DNA of 64,000 bases from positions 310,001 to 374,000 of the forward strand of contig JAHIRF010000005.1 in assembly GCA_018818785.1 (NCBI GenBank). Reading direction: 5' to 3'. The number at the start of each line of letters is the position of its first letter. The first letter of the stretch is position 1. The notes under the pieces were generated by a model. The model saw nothing but the letters and a program-made list of their open reading frames with translations. It searched no databases and was not told the origin of the DNA. Made by a program: the position numbers and the translations under genes. Positions 7,438 to 11,358 of this stretch are shown here, in pieces. The stretch is from Thermoplasmatota archaeon. Its GTDB lineage: Archaea > Thermoplasmatota > Thermoplasmata > UBA10834.

Positions 7438-8691
7438 TCATCCATCTTGATGGTGATCTTCGTCCCGTTCCTTATGGCCTGCGGTCGACCTCATCTCTTG
7501 GATGTTTGCTGGACTGAACGGTGACATCGCCCTCAGCTTCTTCACGATCCCTGGCACCACCTCGATCACGAAGTCGATATCGTCATCGGTGTTGCTCCTA
7601 CCTAGGGTGAACTGCACTGCACTCTGCGCCTCCTCGGTTGGTATGTCGCATGCCAACAGCACGTGCGAAGGCAACAGGCTCTTGGACGTGCATGGAGAAC
7701 TCGACGAGACAGATATGCCCATCATGTCTAGGTTGAGCAGCATCGACTCTCCTTCGATGTATCTGAACCTGAAGTTCGCGTTGTTGGGGAGCCTCCTGGT
7801 CGGATGTCCGTTGAGGAACACGTCCTGGACATTCCCGCGCATCCCCTTGACCAGTCTGTCCCTGAGTCTCGTGAGCCTGGCCCCCTCTTCCACCATCTCG
7901 TTCGCTGCCAACTCGGCCGCGGTGCCGAACCCCACGATGCCTGGGACGTTCTCGGAGCCGGACCTCAGCCCACGTTCCTGTCCGCCTCCCTGTCCCATCG
8001 CCTCGACTGACACGCCATCCTTCACATATAACGCTCCCACACCCTTAGGCCCGTACATGTCGTTCGAGGAGATGGTCATGAGGTCGGTCCCAAGGCTCTG
8101 TACGTCTATCGGTACCTTGCCCGTCGCGGCCACGGCGTCGACGTGGAACCGGATCTCCTTCCCTCTGATCATGTCGCCGATCTCAATGATCGGTTGGAGT
8201 GTGCCTATCTCGTTGTTCGCATACATCACGGAGACCAGGATGGTATCGTCTCTGATAGAGGACCTGAGCTGTTCGATGTCGACGAATCCTTCAGGGGTAG
8301 ACGGCACGTAGGTCACCTCGAACCCGTTCTTCTGAAGATACTTCATGATGTTCAGGACGGAGATGTGTTCTATCGCTGACGTGACGATGTGCTTACCCTT
8401 CTTCCGCATCCGCATCGCGGCGCCTTTGATGCCCAGGTTGTTCGCTTCCGTCCCGCCAGAGGTGAATATGATCTCTTCCTTCCTCTTGGCGTTGATCAGT
8501 CCCGCGACCTTCTCTCTGGCGTCCTCGACCGCATCCTTGGGCCCCCGACCAGAACCGTGCAACGAAGAGGGATTTCCGAAATCATCTGAGAAATAAGGCA
8601 TCATCTCGCTGAGGACCCTTTCGTCCACAGGTGAGGCGGCCGCATAATCCATGTACACCCTTCTCTTCGCTCCGCTTTGACATATGGGCAT
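7438..8691 (-). CDS. Cysteine desulfurase (NifS/IscS family)
   Basis: This PLP-dependent class V aminotransferase-fold enzyme of about 417 aa takes sulfur from cysteine. Visible motifs are VYMDYAAASPVDERVL at the N terminus, the substrate-binding segment IIFTSGGTEANNLGIKG, HVDAVAATGKVPIDV, and SSNDMYGPKGVGALYV. The last is the lysine loop (normally SxHKxxGPKG). The active-site cysteine loop reads SVSSSSPCTSKSLLPSHVL. The histidine before the PLP lysine (usually SSHK) and the lysine itself both appear changed (SSND, then MYGPKG), which is odd and worth checking. An ATG at 8691 is chosen because GGAGG lies about 10 nt upstream; the longer start at 8727 lies only 3 nt beyond the preceding stop and has no ribosome site. 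It is the last gene of a LarC-like, TusA, DsrE-like, NifS series. Confidence 0.82.
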   Translation of the reverse strand: MPICQSGAKRRVYMDYAAASPVDERVLSEMMPYFSDDFGNPSSLHGSGRGPKDAVEDAREKVAGLINAKRKEEIIFTSGGTEANNLGIKGAAMRMRKKGKHIVTSAIEHISVLNIMKYLQKNGFEVTYVPSTPEGFVDIEQLRSSIRDDTILVSVMYANNEIGTLQPIIEIGDMIRGKEIRFHVDAVAATGKVPIDVQSLGTDLMTISSNDMYGPKGVGALYVKDGVSVEAMGQGGGQERGLRSGSENVPGIVGFGTAAELAANEMVEEGARLTRLRDRLVKGMRGNVQDVFLNGHPTRRLPNNANFRFRYIEGESMLLNLDMMGISVSSSSPCTSKSLLPSHVLLACDIPTEEAQSAVQFTLGRSNTDDDIDFVIEVVPGIVKKLRAMSPFSPANIQEMRSTAGHKERDEDHHQDG

Positions 8692-8730
8692 CGTGCACAC
8701 ATCCTCCCAGATGGAGATTCCAACCATGGC

Positions 8731-9099
8731 CTAAAAGGTTAGCACCGCATCCGCTTCCAACGCGAGGTCGTTGAGCGTCGCCGCGCCCACTATCCTCGAC
8801 GGTTGCTCGAACTCCTCAGGTGTCGCCCTGCCGCCCCACAGTTGTGCGCTCTGTGCGCAGATCAGTATCTCGACGCCCGCGTTCGTGGCCTGGTCCATCA
8901 CTTCCTTGAGATCCGGGAAGCTCCCCATCTTGATCTTCTGAGGCTCCCCCTTCTTCACCGACAATATGCCTTTCGCGAGGAAGTAGATGGTCGCTTCGAT
9001 GTTCATCGCGCGTGCCGTGGTCGCGAGTACGAATGGTGAGTAGAGTCGCTCCGGTGTATCGGGACCGGATGTCTGAACGTACAATATCTTCTTGCTCAT
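8731..9099 (-). CDS. DsrE/DsrF-like sulfur relay protein
   Basis: This 122-aa protein has the DsrE-like fold pattern: KKILYVQTSGPDTPERLYSPF at the N terminus, an internal segment on mobility of small molecules in the cell (ATIYFLAKGILSV), and the signature ILICAQSAQLWG, in which the cysteine of ICAQS is the likely persulfide carrier. The ATG at 9099 is supported by a GGAGGAT ribosome site 7 nt upstream. The gene lies 28 nt downstream of tusA and 39 nt upstream of the cysteine desulfurase start, all on one strand. DsrE proteins pass persulfide sulfur between TusA-like carriers and acceptors. It ends with TAG, showing that amber is an ordinary stop codon here. Confidence 0.85.
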   Translation of the reverse strand: MSKKILYVQTSGPDTPERLYSPFVLATTARAMNIEATIYFLAKGILSVKKGEPQKIKMGSFPDLKEVMDQATNAGVEILICAQSAQLWGGRATPEEFEQPSRIVGAATLNDLALEADAVLTF

Positions 9100-9127
9100 T
9101 GACGGATCCTCCTTTTGGCTCAGAGAT

Positions 9128-9421
9128 TCAAGACATCCTCTTGAGAAGGAACCTGAAGCCCTCGTCCGTCTTTTCGACGGATAATAATTCGTGCCCCGCG
9201 TATTTCGCCCAGCTGCGTATGTCCGACTCTGAGGCTGGGTCGTCCGCCAAGACCTCCAGGATCTGTCCAACCTGGACCTTCGAGATATCCTCTCTGGTCC
9301 TGAACACCGGCTCCGGACAGTAGAGGCCGATGCAGTCGAGGGTCTTGGTGGGTCGGGGGAATCCTTCGCCTCTATTCGGCATAACTATCCTCGAATCGCC
9401 TCGGCAGACGACCTCCGTCAT
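9128..9421 (-). CDS. tusA: TusA/SirA-family sulfur carrier protein
   Basis: This small protein of 97 aa (84 aa from the internal ATG at 9382) has the TusA signature LDCIGLYCPEPVFRTRE. The CPEP cysteine accepts persulfide from a cysteine desulfurase. The rest follows the family pattern (GQILEVLADDPASESDIRSW and a C-terminal EGFRFLLKR strand). Both starts are plausible: the ATG at 9421 would be nearly leaderless, while the ATG at 9382 has a GAGGAT ribosome site about 7 nt upstream and gives a length nearer the family norm. The neighbouring DsrE-like and desulfurase genes fit a sulfur relay from desulfurase to TusA to DsrE. Confidence 0.88.
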   Translation of the reverse strand: MTEVVCRGDSRIVMPNRGEGFPRPTKTLDCIGLYCPEPVFRTREDISKVQVGQILEVLADDPASESDIRSWAKYAGHELLSVEKTDEGFRFLLKRMS

Positions 9422-9506
9422 AGTAACGGCGTTTAGTGATGGGGTTTTTTGTTGATAAGGATTTTCCCATCGCAGTATGGTTCTTGCCCTCGCTCCCCCT
9501 CATCGG

Positions 9507-10235
9507 TCACACAAGCCTGAGGGTCGTCCTCCCCAACCTTCCCGCGAACCTCTTAGTGCCGAAACCAACGCTCTTCCTCAAAGGATCATCGGGCACATCG
9601 TCGGTCTGCTCGCTGATCAACGCGGAGATGGCAGCGACACCCGTCGGCGTGGCCCTCTCCCCGGGACAATCTCCCGGGACGTGTCTCAATGCCTTGAGCA
9701 AGTGGGCCGTGGCAGGCGCTGGGAGTCTGAACGTGCCGTGCCCTGTCACAACTATCCCTCTCCCCGTCGTCAATGTGGATGAAACGAACTCTCCATGTGA
9801 GTCCTTCTCCAGAAGGGTCGCGATGAACCCGATCCCTGCCATGTTCATCATGGCCTGCGGTCTGCCTATCTCGTGCAGATGGACCTCTTCAGGCGAGACG
9901 CCGTGCGCGGCGGCTTCTGCTTCGAACACCTTGTCGAGTATGGCATTCGACGATTCTCTGCCAGAGCCTAGCAAAGTCGTTATCTCGTCAATACATCTGT
10001 AGGCATCACGGTATTCGGTCGTGCCTTCGGTCTGTACCCTCTGCACGTACGAGATGCCGATGCCCCTGTCTCCAGAATCCTCGATGTCTATGATTTGCAT
10101 CGACAGACCCTTTCCCTCGGCTGCTGAGACCAGCTTTCGGATCGCGTCCTCTTTCACCGTTTCGGGCAACAGATCGATCATTGCGGCGAGCAGCATGTCG
10201 GCGGATACGCCCTCCCGCGCGTCTATGTGAATCAC
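9507..10235 (-). CDS. LarC N-terminal-domain homologue (DUF111, nickel pincer cofactor protein)
   Basis: This 242-aa protein matches the N-terminal half of LarC. It has an early GVSADMLLAAMIDL segment (normally GAAGDMxLAAL), EVHLHEIGRPQAMMNMAGI (normally HLHEIGxxDAIxDIVG), STLTTGRGIVVTGHGTFRLPAPATAHLL, ERATPTGVAAI, and it ends with the SVGFGTKRF and LRLV motifs. LarC inserts nickel into the nickel-pincer nucleotide cofactor. Usual LarC is about 400 aa, and in Lactobacillus it is made as LarC1 plus LarC2. This protein stops at the end of the LarC1-like domain and only 85 nt separate it from tusA, so no second half follows. Changes at usual positions (DA to QA after HEIGR) suggest an altered function. 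A GTG start at 10235 fits a leaderless promoter (CAATTATC about 27 nt upstream, reading the minus strand). Confidence 0.75.
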   Translation of the reverse strand: MIHIDAREGVSADMLLAAMIDLLPETVKEDAIRKLVSAAEGKGLSMQIIDIEDSGDRGIGISYVQRVQTEGTTEYRDAYRCIDEITTLLGSGRESSNAILDKVFEAEAAAHGVSPEEVHLHEIGRPQAMMNMAGIGFIATLLEKDSHGEFVSSTLTTGRGIVVTGHGTFRLPAPATAHLLKALRHVPGDCPGERATPTGVAAISALISEQTDDVPDDPLRKSVGFGTKRFAGRLGRTTLRLV

Positions 10236-10308
10236 GAATATCTCGAATGCGCTTGTCTGGGATAATTGTTCTGTGACCTAGGATGGGTGGATTGAACCGG
10301 TCCGCCCG

Positions 10309-11157
10309 TTACTTGGTCTTGACCTTCCTGGTCTTGAGTTTCCGCTGTTTCGGCTTCTCGGGCGGAGCCATCTCAGGTTCCTTCTCCTCGACTTCTTCCT
10401 TCTCCAGATGCTCCTCTTCACGCGGCTCCTCGGCAGTGACTGGTTCAGGTTCCTGAGGTGCGATCACCTGCTGGTCGACCTCCTGGACAGGTTCCATCGG
10501 TTCCGGTACGGCCATGGGCTCGACTATCTCCACTTGCGGCTCGGGCAATGGTTCTTCCACCGCCTCGACCCTCATCTCTTCCTCTGCTTGTGGAGCGACG
10601 ACCTCCTCATCCACACTCTCGACGATCTCAGACTCCGAAGGTACCTCGACTTTGTCGATGGTCGTCTCAGCGGCGATCACTTCGGGCTCGGTCTCGGTGA
10701 ACGCGAAGTCGGAACCGCACTCATCGCACTTGAGCGCCTCTGCGGCGACCAAGGCCGCGCAGATCGGACATTGGTAGCTCACGTCATCCCCGAATGTCGC
10801 GCTACACTTCGGGCATCGTTCCTCGCTTCCGTCAAGCATCCACGAGCAATGAGGACAGCTGAGCTTCTTGTCCTCCACCTTGACCTGCATCGACTCGATG
10901 GCGATTATCTCGGTCAGCAGAGTGTCAATGCTCTCGTCCGTATTCTTGGTGTCCGATTTCGAATAGAACTCGCGGTAGACGACATGGCACGATGGACAGC
11001 TCACGGATTCCTGATCCACATGCGCTCCGCAGAACGGACACTCGAAGAGTGTGTTCTTGCTATATCTGACACTACATCGTGGGCACGCCTCCTCGCGACC
11101 ATTGACTCTGAAGCCGCATGTAGGGCAGCCGAACAGTTTCTTCCCGTCAATATCCAT
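10309..11157 (-). CDS. Four-zinc-ribbon protein with acidic Pro/Glu-rich tail
   Basis: This protein is about 282 aa. The first 160 residues hold four zinc ribbons as CxxC pairs: CPTC/CPRC, CPFC/CPSC, CPHC/CPKC and CPIC/CDEC. They are arranged as two doublets joined by a linker (near SKSDTKNTDESIDTLLTEI). The rest is a low-complexity tail rich in Glu, Pro and Val, ending in a basic patch (KPKQRKLKTRKVKTK). There is no membrane segment, so it is cytoplasmic. Multi-ribbon proteins of this sort are common in Thermoplasmata and may act as scaffolds or nucleic-acid or protein binders; I cannot name a function. The ATG at 11157 is preferred over a GTG two codons earlier. Confidence 0.75.
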   Translation of the reverse strand: MDIDGKKLFGCPTCGFRVNGREEACPRCSVRYSKNTLFECPFCGAHVDQESVSCPSCHVVYREFYSKSDTKNTDESIDTLLTEIIAIESMQVKVEDKKLSCPHCSWMLDGSEERCPKCSATFGDDVSYQCPICAALVAAEALKCDECGSDFAFTETEPEVIAAETTIDKVEVPSESEIVESVDEEVVAPQAEEEMRVEAVEEPLPEPQVEIVEPMAVPEPMEPVQEVDQQVIAPQEPEPVTAEEPREEEHLEKEEVEEKEPEMAPPEKPKQRKLKTRKVKTK

Positions 11158-11358
11158 CGACACTTACCTAGACTTATGAAGGCTCTGCCCAGTCTAAACA
11201 TTTTCGGTGGTCGTGTATCGTATTACCCGTCTCCATGGCGAATGCGAAGTGTGGTAGGTGTCATATCATCCGCATCGTCGATCTCAGAAAGTCCGAGCGA
11301 TCTTGAGCACATAGCTGTGCCAAAAGTGCCGCTGGGATGAGAGCGAGATATCGTCCCG

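Follow-up and report, generated by a model that had tools for sequence, protein, structure and literature searches.

Gene content of the locus

The window, that is, the whole 64,000-nucleotide stretch of DNA that was analyzed, corresponds to positions 310001-374000 of contig C12 in a Thermoplasmatota archaeon genome of 1.97 Mb (12 contigs, 94.5% complete). A preliminary description of the sequence had placed the N-domain of LarC together with TusA, DsrE and NifS, in this order, on one strand, and we could confirm all four genes, arranged in just this way on the minus strand. The genes, together with the TATA-like elements located upstream of two of them, are the following (window coordinates):

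9507..10235, minus strand: LarC1-only protein, 242 aa, GTG start; N-terminal half of LarC, no LarC2
9128..9421, minus strand: TusA-like sulfur carrier, 97 aa, CPEP motif (CPxP); PF01206, 1.2e-23
8731..9099, minus strand: DsrE-family sulfur carrier, 122 aa; PF02635, 1.6e-19; conserved Cys in LICAQSAQLWG
7438..8691, minus strand: IscS/NifS homolog of the Archaeoglobus IscS2 type, 417 aa; SSNDMYGPKG; Cys loop SSSSPCTS
10261..10265, minus strand: LarC1 TATA-like element with TTATC core, 30 nt upstream of the LarC1 start
9454..9458, minus strand: TusA TATA-like element with TTATC core, 37 nt upstream of the annotated TusA start

For the IscS/NifS homolog, a start at 8691, giving 417 aa, appears more likely than the ORF maximum at 8727, because its relatives measure 413-420 aa. 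The TusA motif is kept in all relatives, and orthologs of the DsrE protein are present in families f1, f2, f11, f16 and f30. Upstream of LarC1, a further minus-strand gene (window 10309-11163) encodes a protein in which paired zinc ribbons are combined with a long tail rich in acidic residues and proline; it remains beside the trio of sulfur genes where LarC1 is absent.

The LarC homolog comprises only the LarC1 half

The LarC1-like protein matches PF01969 over positions 2-224 of 375 (E 3.5e-38; 132.2 bits, cut-off 22.1) and is the only PF01969 match in its genome. With 102.6 bits it also scores above the cut-off of 90 for TIGR00299 (nickel_LarC1), which establishes it as a homolog of the N-terminal half of LarC. 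That the protein stops at the LarC1 boundary, as described earlier, is borne out by the extent of the PF01969 match and by the lack of LarC2 throughout the genome. AlphaFold2 predicts a confident single domain (pLDDT 94.2, pTM 0.93). A fold search with this model against the PDB (to April 2026) returned no significant match, and the solved LarC 12bi was matched by sequence only (chain 12bi_D residues 23-237, profile E 3e-21). The nearest relatives in a named collection are found in Thermoplasmata MAGs, for example UBA9653. LarC-like proteins from Actinomycetaceae MAGs (L117-L120) are about 30% identical to the window LarC1 and share its conserved motifs.

CTP binding is assigned to the LarC2 half of LarC. 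A profile built from the LarC2 halves of 12 full-length LarCs gave no match at E<=1 in the genome, either fused or separate, and no convincing match in other genomes whose LarC is half-length (the best, at 0.007, spanned 46 positions); three genomes with full-length LarC that served as positive controls (G030, G018, G005) were matched at 1e-58 to 1e-64. This genome-wide search with its controls rules out a LarC2 half that is hidden by a frameshift or encoded elsewhere. Truncation during assembly can likewise be dismissed, as the gene is internal, its flanks are intact and the same half-length is seen in eight f1 genomes. Within f1, the LarC1 proteins are 47-54% identical to their relatives and retain many invariant columns, which rules out a pseudogene in this family.

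The preliminary description had further stated that the usual residues of LarC are altered. This holds for four positions of full-length LarC (C6, D127, D131 and C164), each of which differs in the window protein, but not for 21 columns that are invariant across the half-length proteins of f1, f2 (G077), f22 and f20/f29 as well as full-length LarC, amongst them H111, H121, E122, H166 and E193. Across f1, C6 (in most proteins), D127, D131 and C164 are lost, with D127 replaced by Q and D131 by N throughout; every full-length LarC examined has both aspartates. Given the loss of D127 and D131, the chemistry of LarC1 could be altered.

In a tree of the N-terminal halves, the half-length LarCs of f1, f2 and f22 form one clade (99/100 support), which a long branch divides from full-length LarC. 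Half-length LarCs from f20 and f29 fall within the full-length proteins, and those from f12 form a separate long branch. The f12 proteins (L048, L049, L050) constitute a second, very divergent half-length LarC-like clade, and their genomes have LarB and LarE and no LarC2.

LarC1 occurs together with larB and larE

LarB and LarE had been reported as missing from the window, which is correct, though both are encoded elsewhere in the genome. Of the four components LarA, LarB, LarE and LarC2, the first three were thus found, and LarC2 alone gave no match in the profile search. The larE (307 bits) and larB (284 bits) genes, both over their cut-offs, overlap by 4 nt on contig C1, which also carries larA (190 bits) at a distance from this pair. 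As larE, larB and larA share the genome with LarC1, we assign the latter to a pathway of the nickel-pincer type, and as LarC2 is absent, this pathway would be a variant one, as the preliminary description had supposed.

The LarE protein carries the PP-loop SGGTDS and the CXXC-C cysteines (DRCYQC, NPCLATR) as in the [4Fe-4S] type of LarE, of which the Thermotoga member obtains sulfur from a cysteine desulfurase (PMC9283937). For LarA, the closest solved structure is the malate racemase Mar2. The H/H/K/H residues are retained in motifs aligned to solved LarAs (GMHR, EPHYFAG, GGRKSFLPG and NH), corresponding to the catalytic His pair, the NPN lysine and the Ni-ligand His (PMC9283937, PMC11770544).

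Across relatives, LarC1 co-occurs with larB and larE. All three are undetected in the sister genus g3 (0/7 genomes), some genomes of which, including G053 and G061, are single-contig assemblies; this loss may represent a single event and would then count as one observation instead of seven. LarC1 of family f22 lies next to the larE-larB pair, in divergent orientation, and the trio is missing there; these LarC1 proteins belong to the same clade as those of f1 and are more canonical in sequence. In family f2, LarC1 is found without the trio at its usual locus between BacA and a large surface-type gene. One f2 genome, G027, has the trio away from LarC1; it has no larB or larE, and its LarC1 (L046:6134-6916), still at the conserved locus, has lost most of the conserved His/Glu residues and sits on a very long branch. 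From its sequence, the G027 gene is possibly a pseudogene, and either decay or a new function may account for its state. Another genome, G077, which is fragmented, has a well-conserved LarC1 and no detected larB or larE.

LarA persists in g3 without LarB, LarE or LarC, and LarA alone is therefore no proof of the pathway. These g3 LarA proteins (L137-L140, L149, L150) keep all catalytic and cofactor-binding motifs, and perhaps use a scavenged cofactor. LarA, LarB and LarE are also over cut-offs in five genomes with an estimated completeness of 99% (G038, G070 and G155 of f20; G187 and G195 of f29) in which no PF01969 (LarC) protein and no LarC2 was found. At the larE-larB loci of genus g2, another DsrE-family gene lies directly upstream on the same strand in two genomes (L121:3506-3871 in G036, L122:4822-5370 in G112); in other g2 genomes an Alba gene is located near larE-larB in its place.

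The TusA-DsrE-IscS trio is independent of LarC1

The order BacA, zinc-ribbon gene, LarC1, TusA, DsrE, IscS is kept in genera g1 and g2 where contigs allow. In g3, TusA-DsrE-IscS comes directly after the zinc-ribbon gene at the corresponding position in at least three genomes, and in a fourth TusA-DsrE does so at a contig end. At least four g3 genomes keep the trio next to BacA and this gene despite the lack of LarC, LarB and LarE. The order TusA-DsrE-IscS recurs in G010 (f11) and in the four genomes of f30; in G026 (f16) a DsrE ortholog lies beside IscS. No lar gene was found on these short f30, f11 and f16 loci, and those of these genomes that the PF01969 search covered gave no LarC. The neighborhood as a whole is thus conserved in g1 and g2 only and is broken up in g3, f2, f22 and f30, so that LarC1 and the trio are separable outside of these two genera.

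The upstream regions point in the same direction. In seven of nine genomes, the LarC1 start is preceded at a distance of 29-32 nt by a TTATC core, and in 11 of 12 the same core occurs in the 120 nt before the TusA start; the latter include all four g3 loci examined, where LarC1 is lacking (4/4). The background is 5.3% per 120-nt stretch, a figure that yields no formal probability as the sequences are related. The core was not found in the upstream regions of NifS. The predicted TATA-like elements suggest that LarC1 has a promoter of its own and is not transcribed together with the trio.

The IscS/NifS homolog lacks the PLP lysine

The NifS of the window scores 506.6 bits against TIGR03402, just under the cut-off of 530.75, and both the homology to the fold type and the loop cysteine (SSSSPCTS) are present. 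Among solved structures it is closest to Archaeoglobus IscS2 (4eb5, 470.8 bits). Where active enzymes have HK in the motif SxHKxxGPxG, the window protein reads SSNDMYGPKG, the PLP lysine being replaced by Asp. The same SSND is seen in 4eb5, the engineered form of which (4r5f) has SSNK. N-D is found in every f1 copy that covers the region and also in the copies of f2 and f30, and the G010 copy has N-Q at this position. Archaeoglobus IscS is without desulfurase activity because its PLP lysine is an aspartate, and it contributes a cysteine that ligates the cluster carried by IscU (PMC7585200).

Judged by this motif, the window protein (hereafter IscS*) is unlikely to desulfurate cysteine, and it should therefore not feed a persulfide relay by itself. 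A canonical NifS/IscS (SSHK, over the curated cut-off) and a SufS are encoded on contig C1, which rules out IscS* as the sole cysteine desulfurase of the organism. In view of the missing lysine and of these canonical enzymes, the trio is better read as a unit for Fe-S or sulfur traffic than as a cysteine-fed relay to LarE.

A probable reduced nickel-pincer pathway beside a separate sulfur unit

Taken together, the data make it probable that the genome encodes a reduced nickel-pincer pathway with a LarC1-only protein, and that this gene stands beside a separate, conserved sulfur/Fe-S unit. In such a pathway, LarB would make P2CMN from NaAD, and LarE of the [4Fe-4S] type would turn P2CMN into P2TMN; the sulfur for this step would be supplied by a cysteine desulfurase, for which the canonical IscS or SufS encoded on contig C1 are the most likely candidates. 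Nickel would then be inserted by the LarC1 half, in the absence of the CTP-linked LarC2 domain, and the finished nickel-pincer nucleotide (NPN) would serve the LarA homolog, whose closest solved relative is Mar2. TusA-DsrE-IscS* would be a conserved operon of its own, devoted to sulfur or Fe-S traffic, in which IscS* may contribute a cysteine ligand, as Archaeoglobus IscS does, or accept sulfur from elsewhere. Speaking against this reading are the replaced aspartates of the f1 proteins, the well-conserved LarC1 of the fragmented genome G077 with no larB or larE detected, the LarA that persists by itself in g3, and the chance that g3 lost its lar genes only once.

The preliminary description had instead considered the four genes together, with a persulfide relay that would deliver sulfur to a variant nickel-pincer pathway. 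The gene order shared by two genera of the family, the dependence of this LarE type on a cysteine desulfurase (PMC9283937) and the different DsrE-family gene just upstream of larE-larB in G036 and G112 would all fit this reading. We nevertheless consider it very improbable, as the g3 genomes keep the trio without any lar biosynthesis gene, families free of LarC have it as well, LarC1 of f2 and f22 does without it, LarC1 and TusA have TATA-like elements of their own, and IscS* lacks the PLP lysine in a genome that encodes canonical IscS and SufS elsewhere. What remains of the earlier proposal is the variant Lar pathway and not its link to the relay: the neighborhood is limited to two genera, separate promoters are likely, and the lar set elsewhere in the genome is complete except for LarC2.

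Two further explanations concern the LarC1-only protein itself. It might no longer insert nickel and act as a nickel chaperone, as a P2TMN-binding regulator or as an enzyme adding another metal or group to a pincer-type nucleotide. The replacement of D127 and D131 across f1, the changes at C6 and C164, the long branch from full-length LarC and the missing LarC2 are consistent with this, but the 21 invariant columns with their histidines and glutamates are retained, and members of this clade from f22, which are more canonical, adjoin larE-larB; we therefore regard such a change of role as unlikely. We attach a similarly low probability to a two-component LarC, in which an unrelated, unrecognized protein replaces the LarC2 half. 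LarC is a CTP-dependent cyclometallase, with CTP cytidylylating the substrate before nickel insertion, and the use of CTP is established for the Lactiplantibacillus and Moorella enzymes (PMC11796402); together with the retention of LarC1 alongside LarB and LarE although LarC2 is absent everywhere, this would argue for a substitute. However, no candidate partner was found beside LarC1, and its neighbors differ among f1, f2 and f22.

Returning to the reduced pathway, we tentatively put forward a more specific proposal, which is itself rather doubtful: the single-domain LarC clade of Thermoplasmata might complete NPN synthesis without LarC2, inserting nickel into P2TMN with no cytidylylation of the substrate, or might make a pincer cofactor with an altered metal or structure. 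A clade that has LarB, LarE and LarA and only the LarC1 half offers a natural test of which half carries out the metal chemistry, and of whether CTP is always needed. The locus also cautions against treating neighboring genes as one pathway, as the sulfur genes are separable and the "cysteine desulfurase" among them is probably unable to desulfurate cysteine.

Comparison with known systems

The side-by-side arrangement of TusA and DsrE, both putative sulfur carriers, is shared with other archaeal DsrE-TusA clusters, such as dsrE3A-dsrE2B-tusA of Metallosphaera cuprina (PMC4175335); in contrast to the latter, the window pair is coupled to a lysine-less IscS and not to a heterodisulfide-reductase-like complex. 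Archaeoglobus fulgidus IscS2 (4eb5) resembles IscS* in the SSND aspartate at the position of the PLP lysine and in the loop cysteine, whereas the window protein is clustered with TusA and DsrE and no IscU was seen among the adjacent genes examined. With the [4Fe-4S] sulfur insertase LarE of Thermotoga maritima, the LarE of this genome has the PP-loop SGGTDS and the CXXC-C cysteines in common, motifs that make it a putative member of this type; its gene lies outside of the window and overlaps larB. The closest known relative of the LarC1-only protein is LarC, the P2TMN nickel insertion protein (PF01969/TIGR00299; solved 12bi-12bl), the full-length representatives of which in the same class are about 25-28% identical to it. 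The window protein differs in having no LarC2 half anywhere in the genome, in the change of two invariant Asp and two Cys and in being encoded apart from larB and larE, but it is homologous to the N-terminal half of LarC, keeps the His/Glu positions and shares its genome with the other lar genes.
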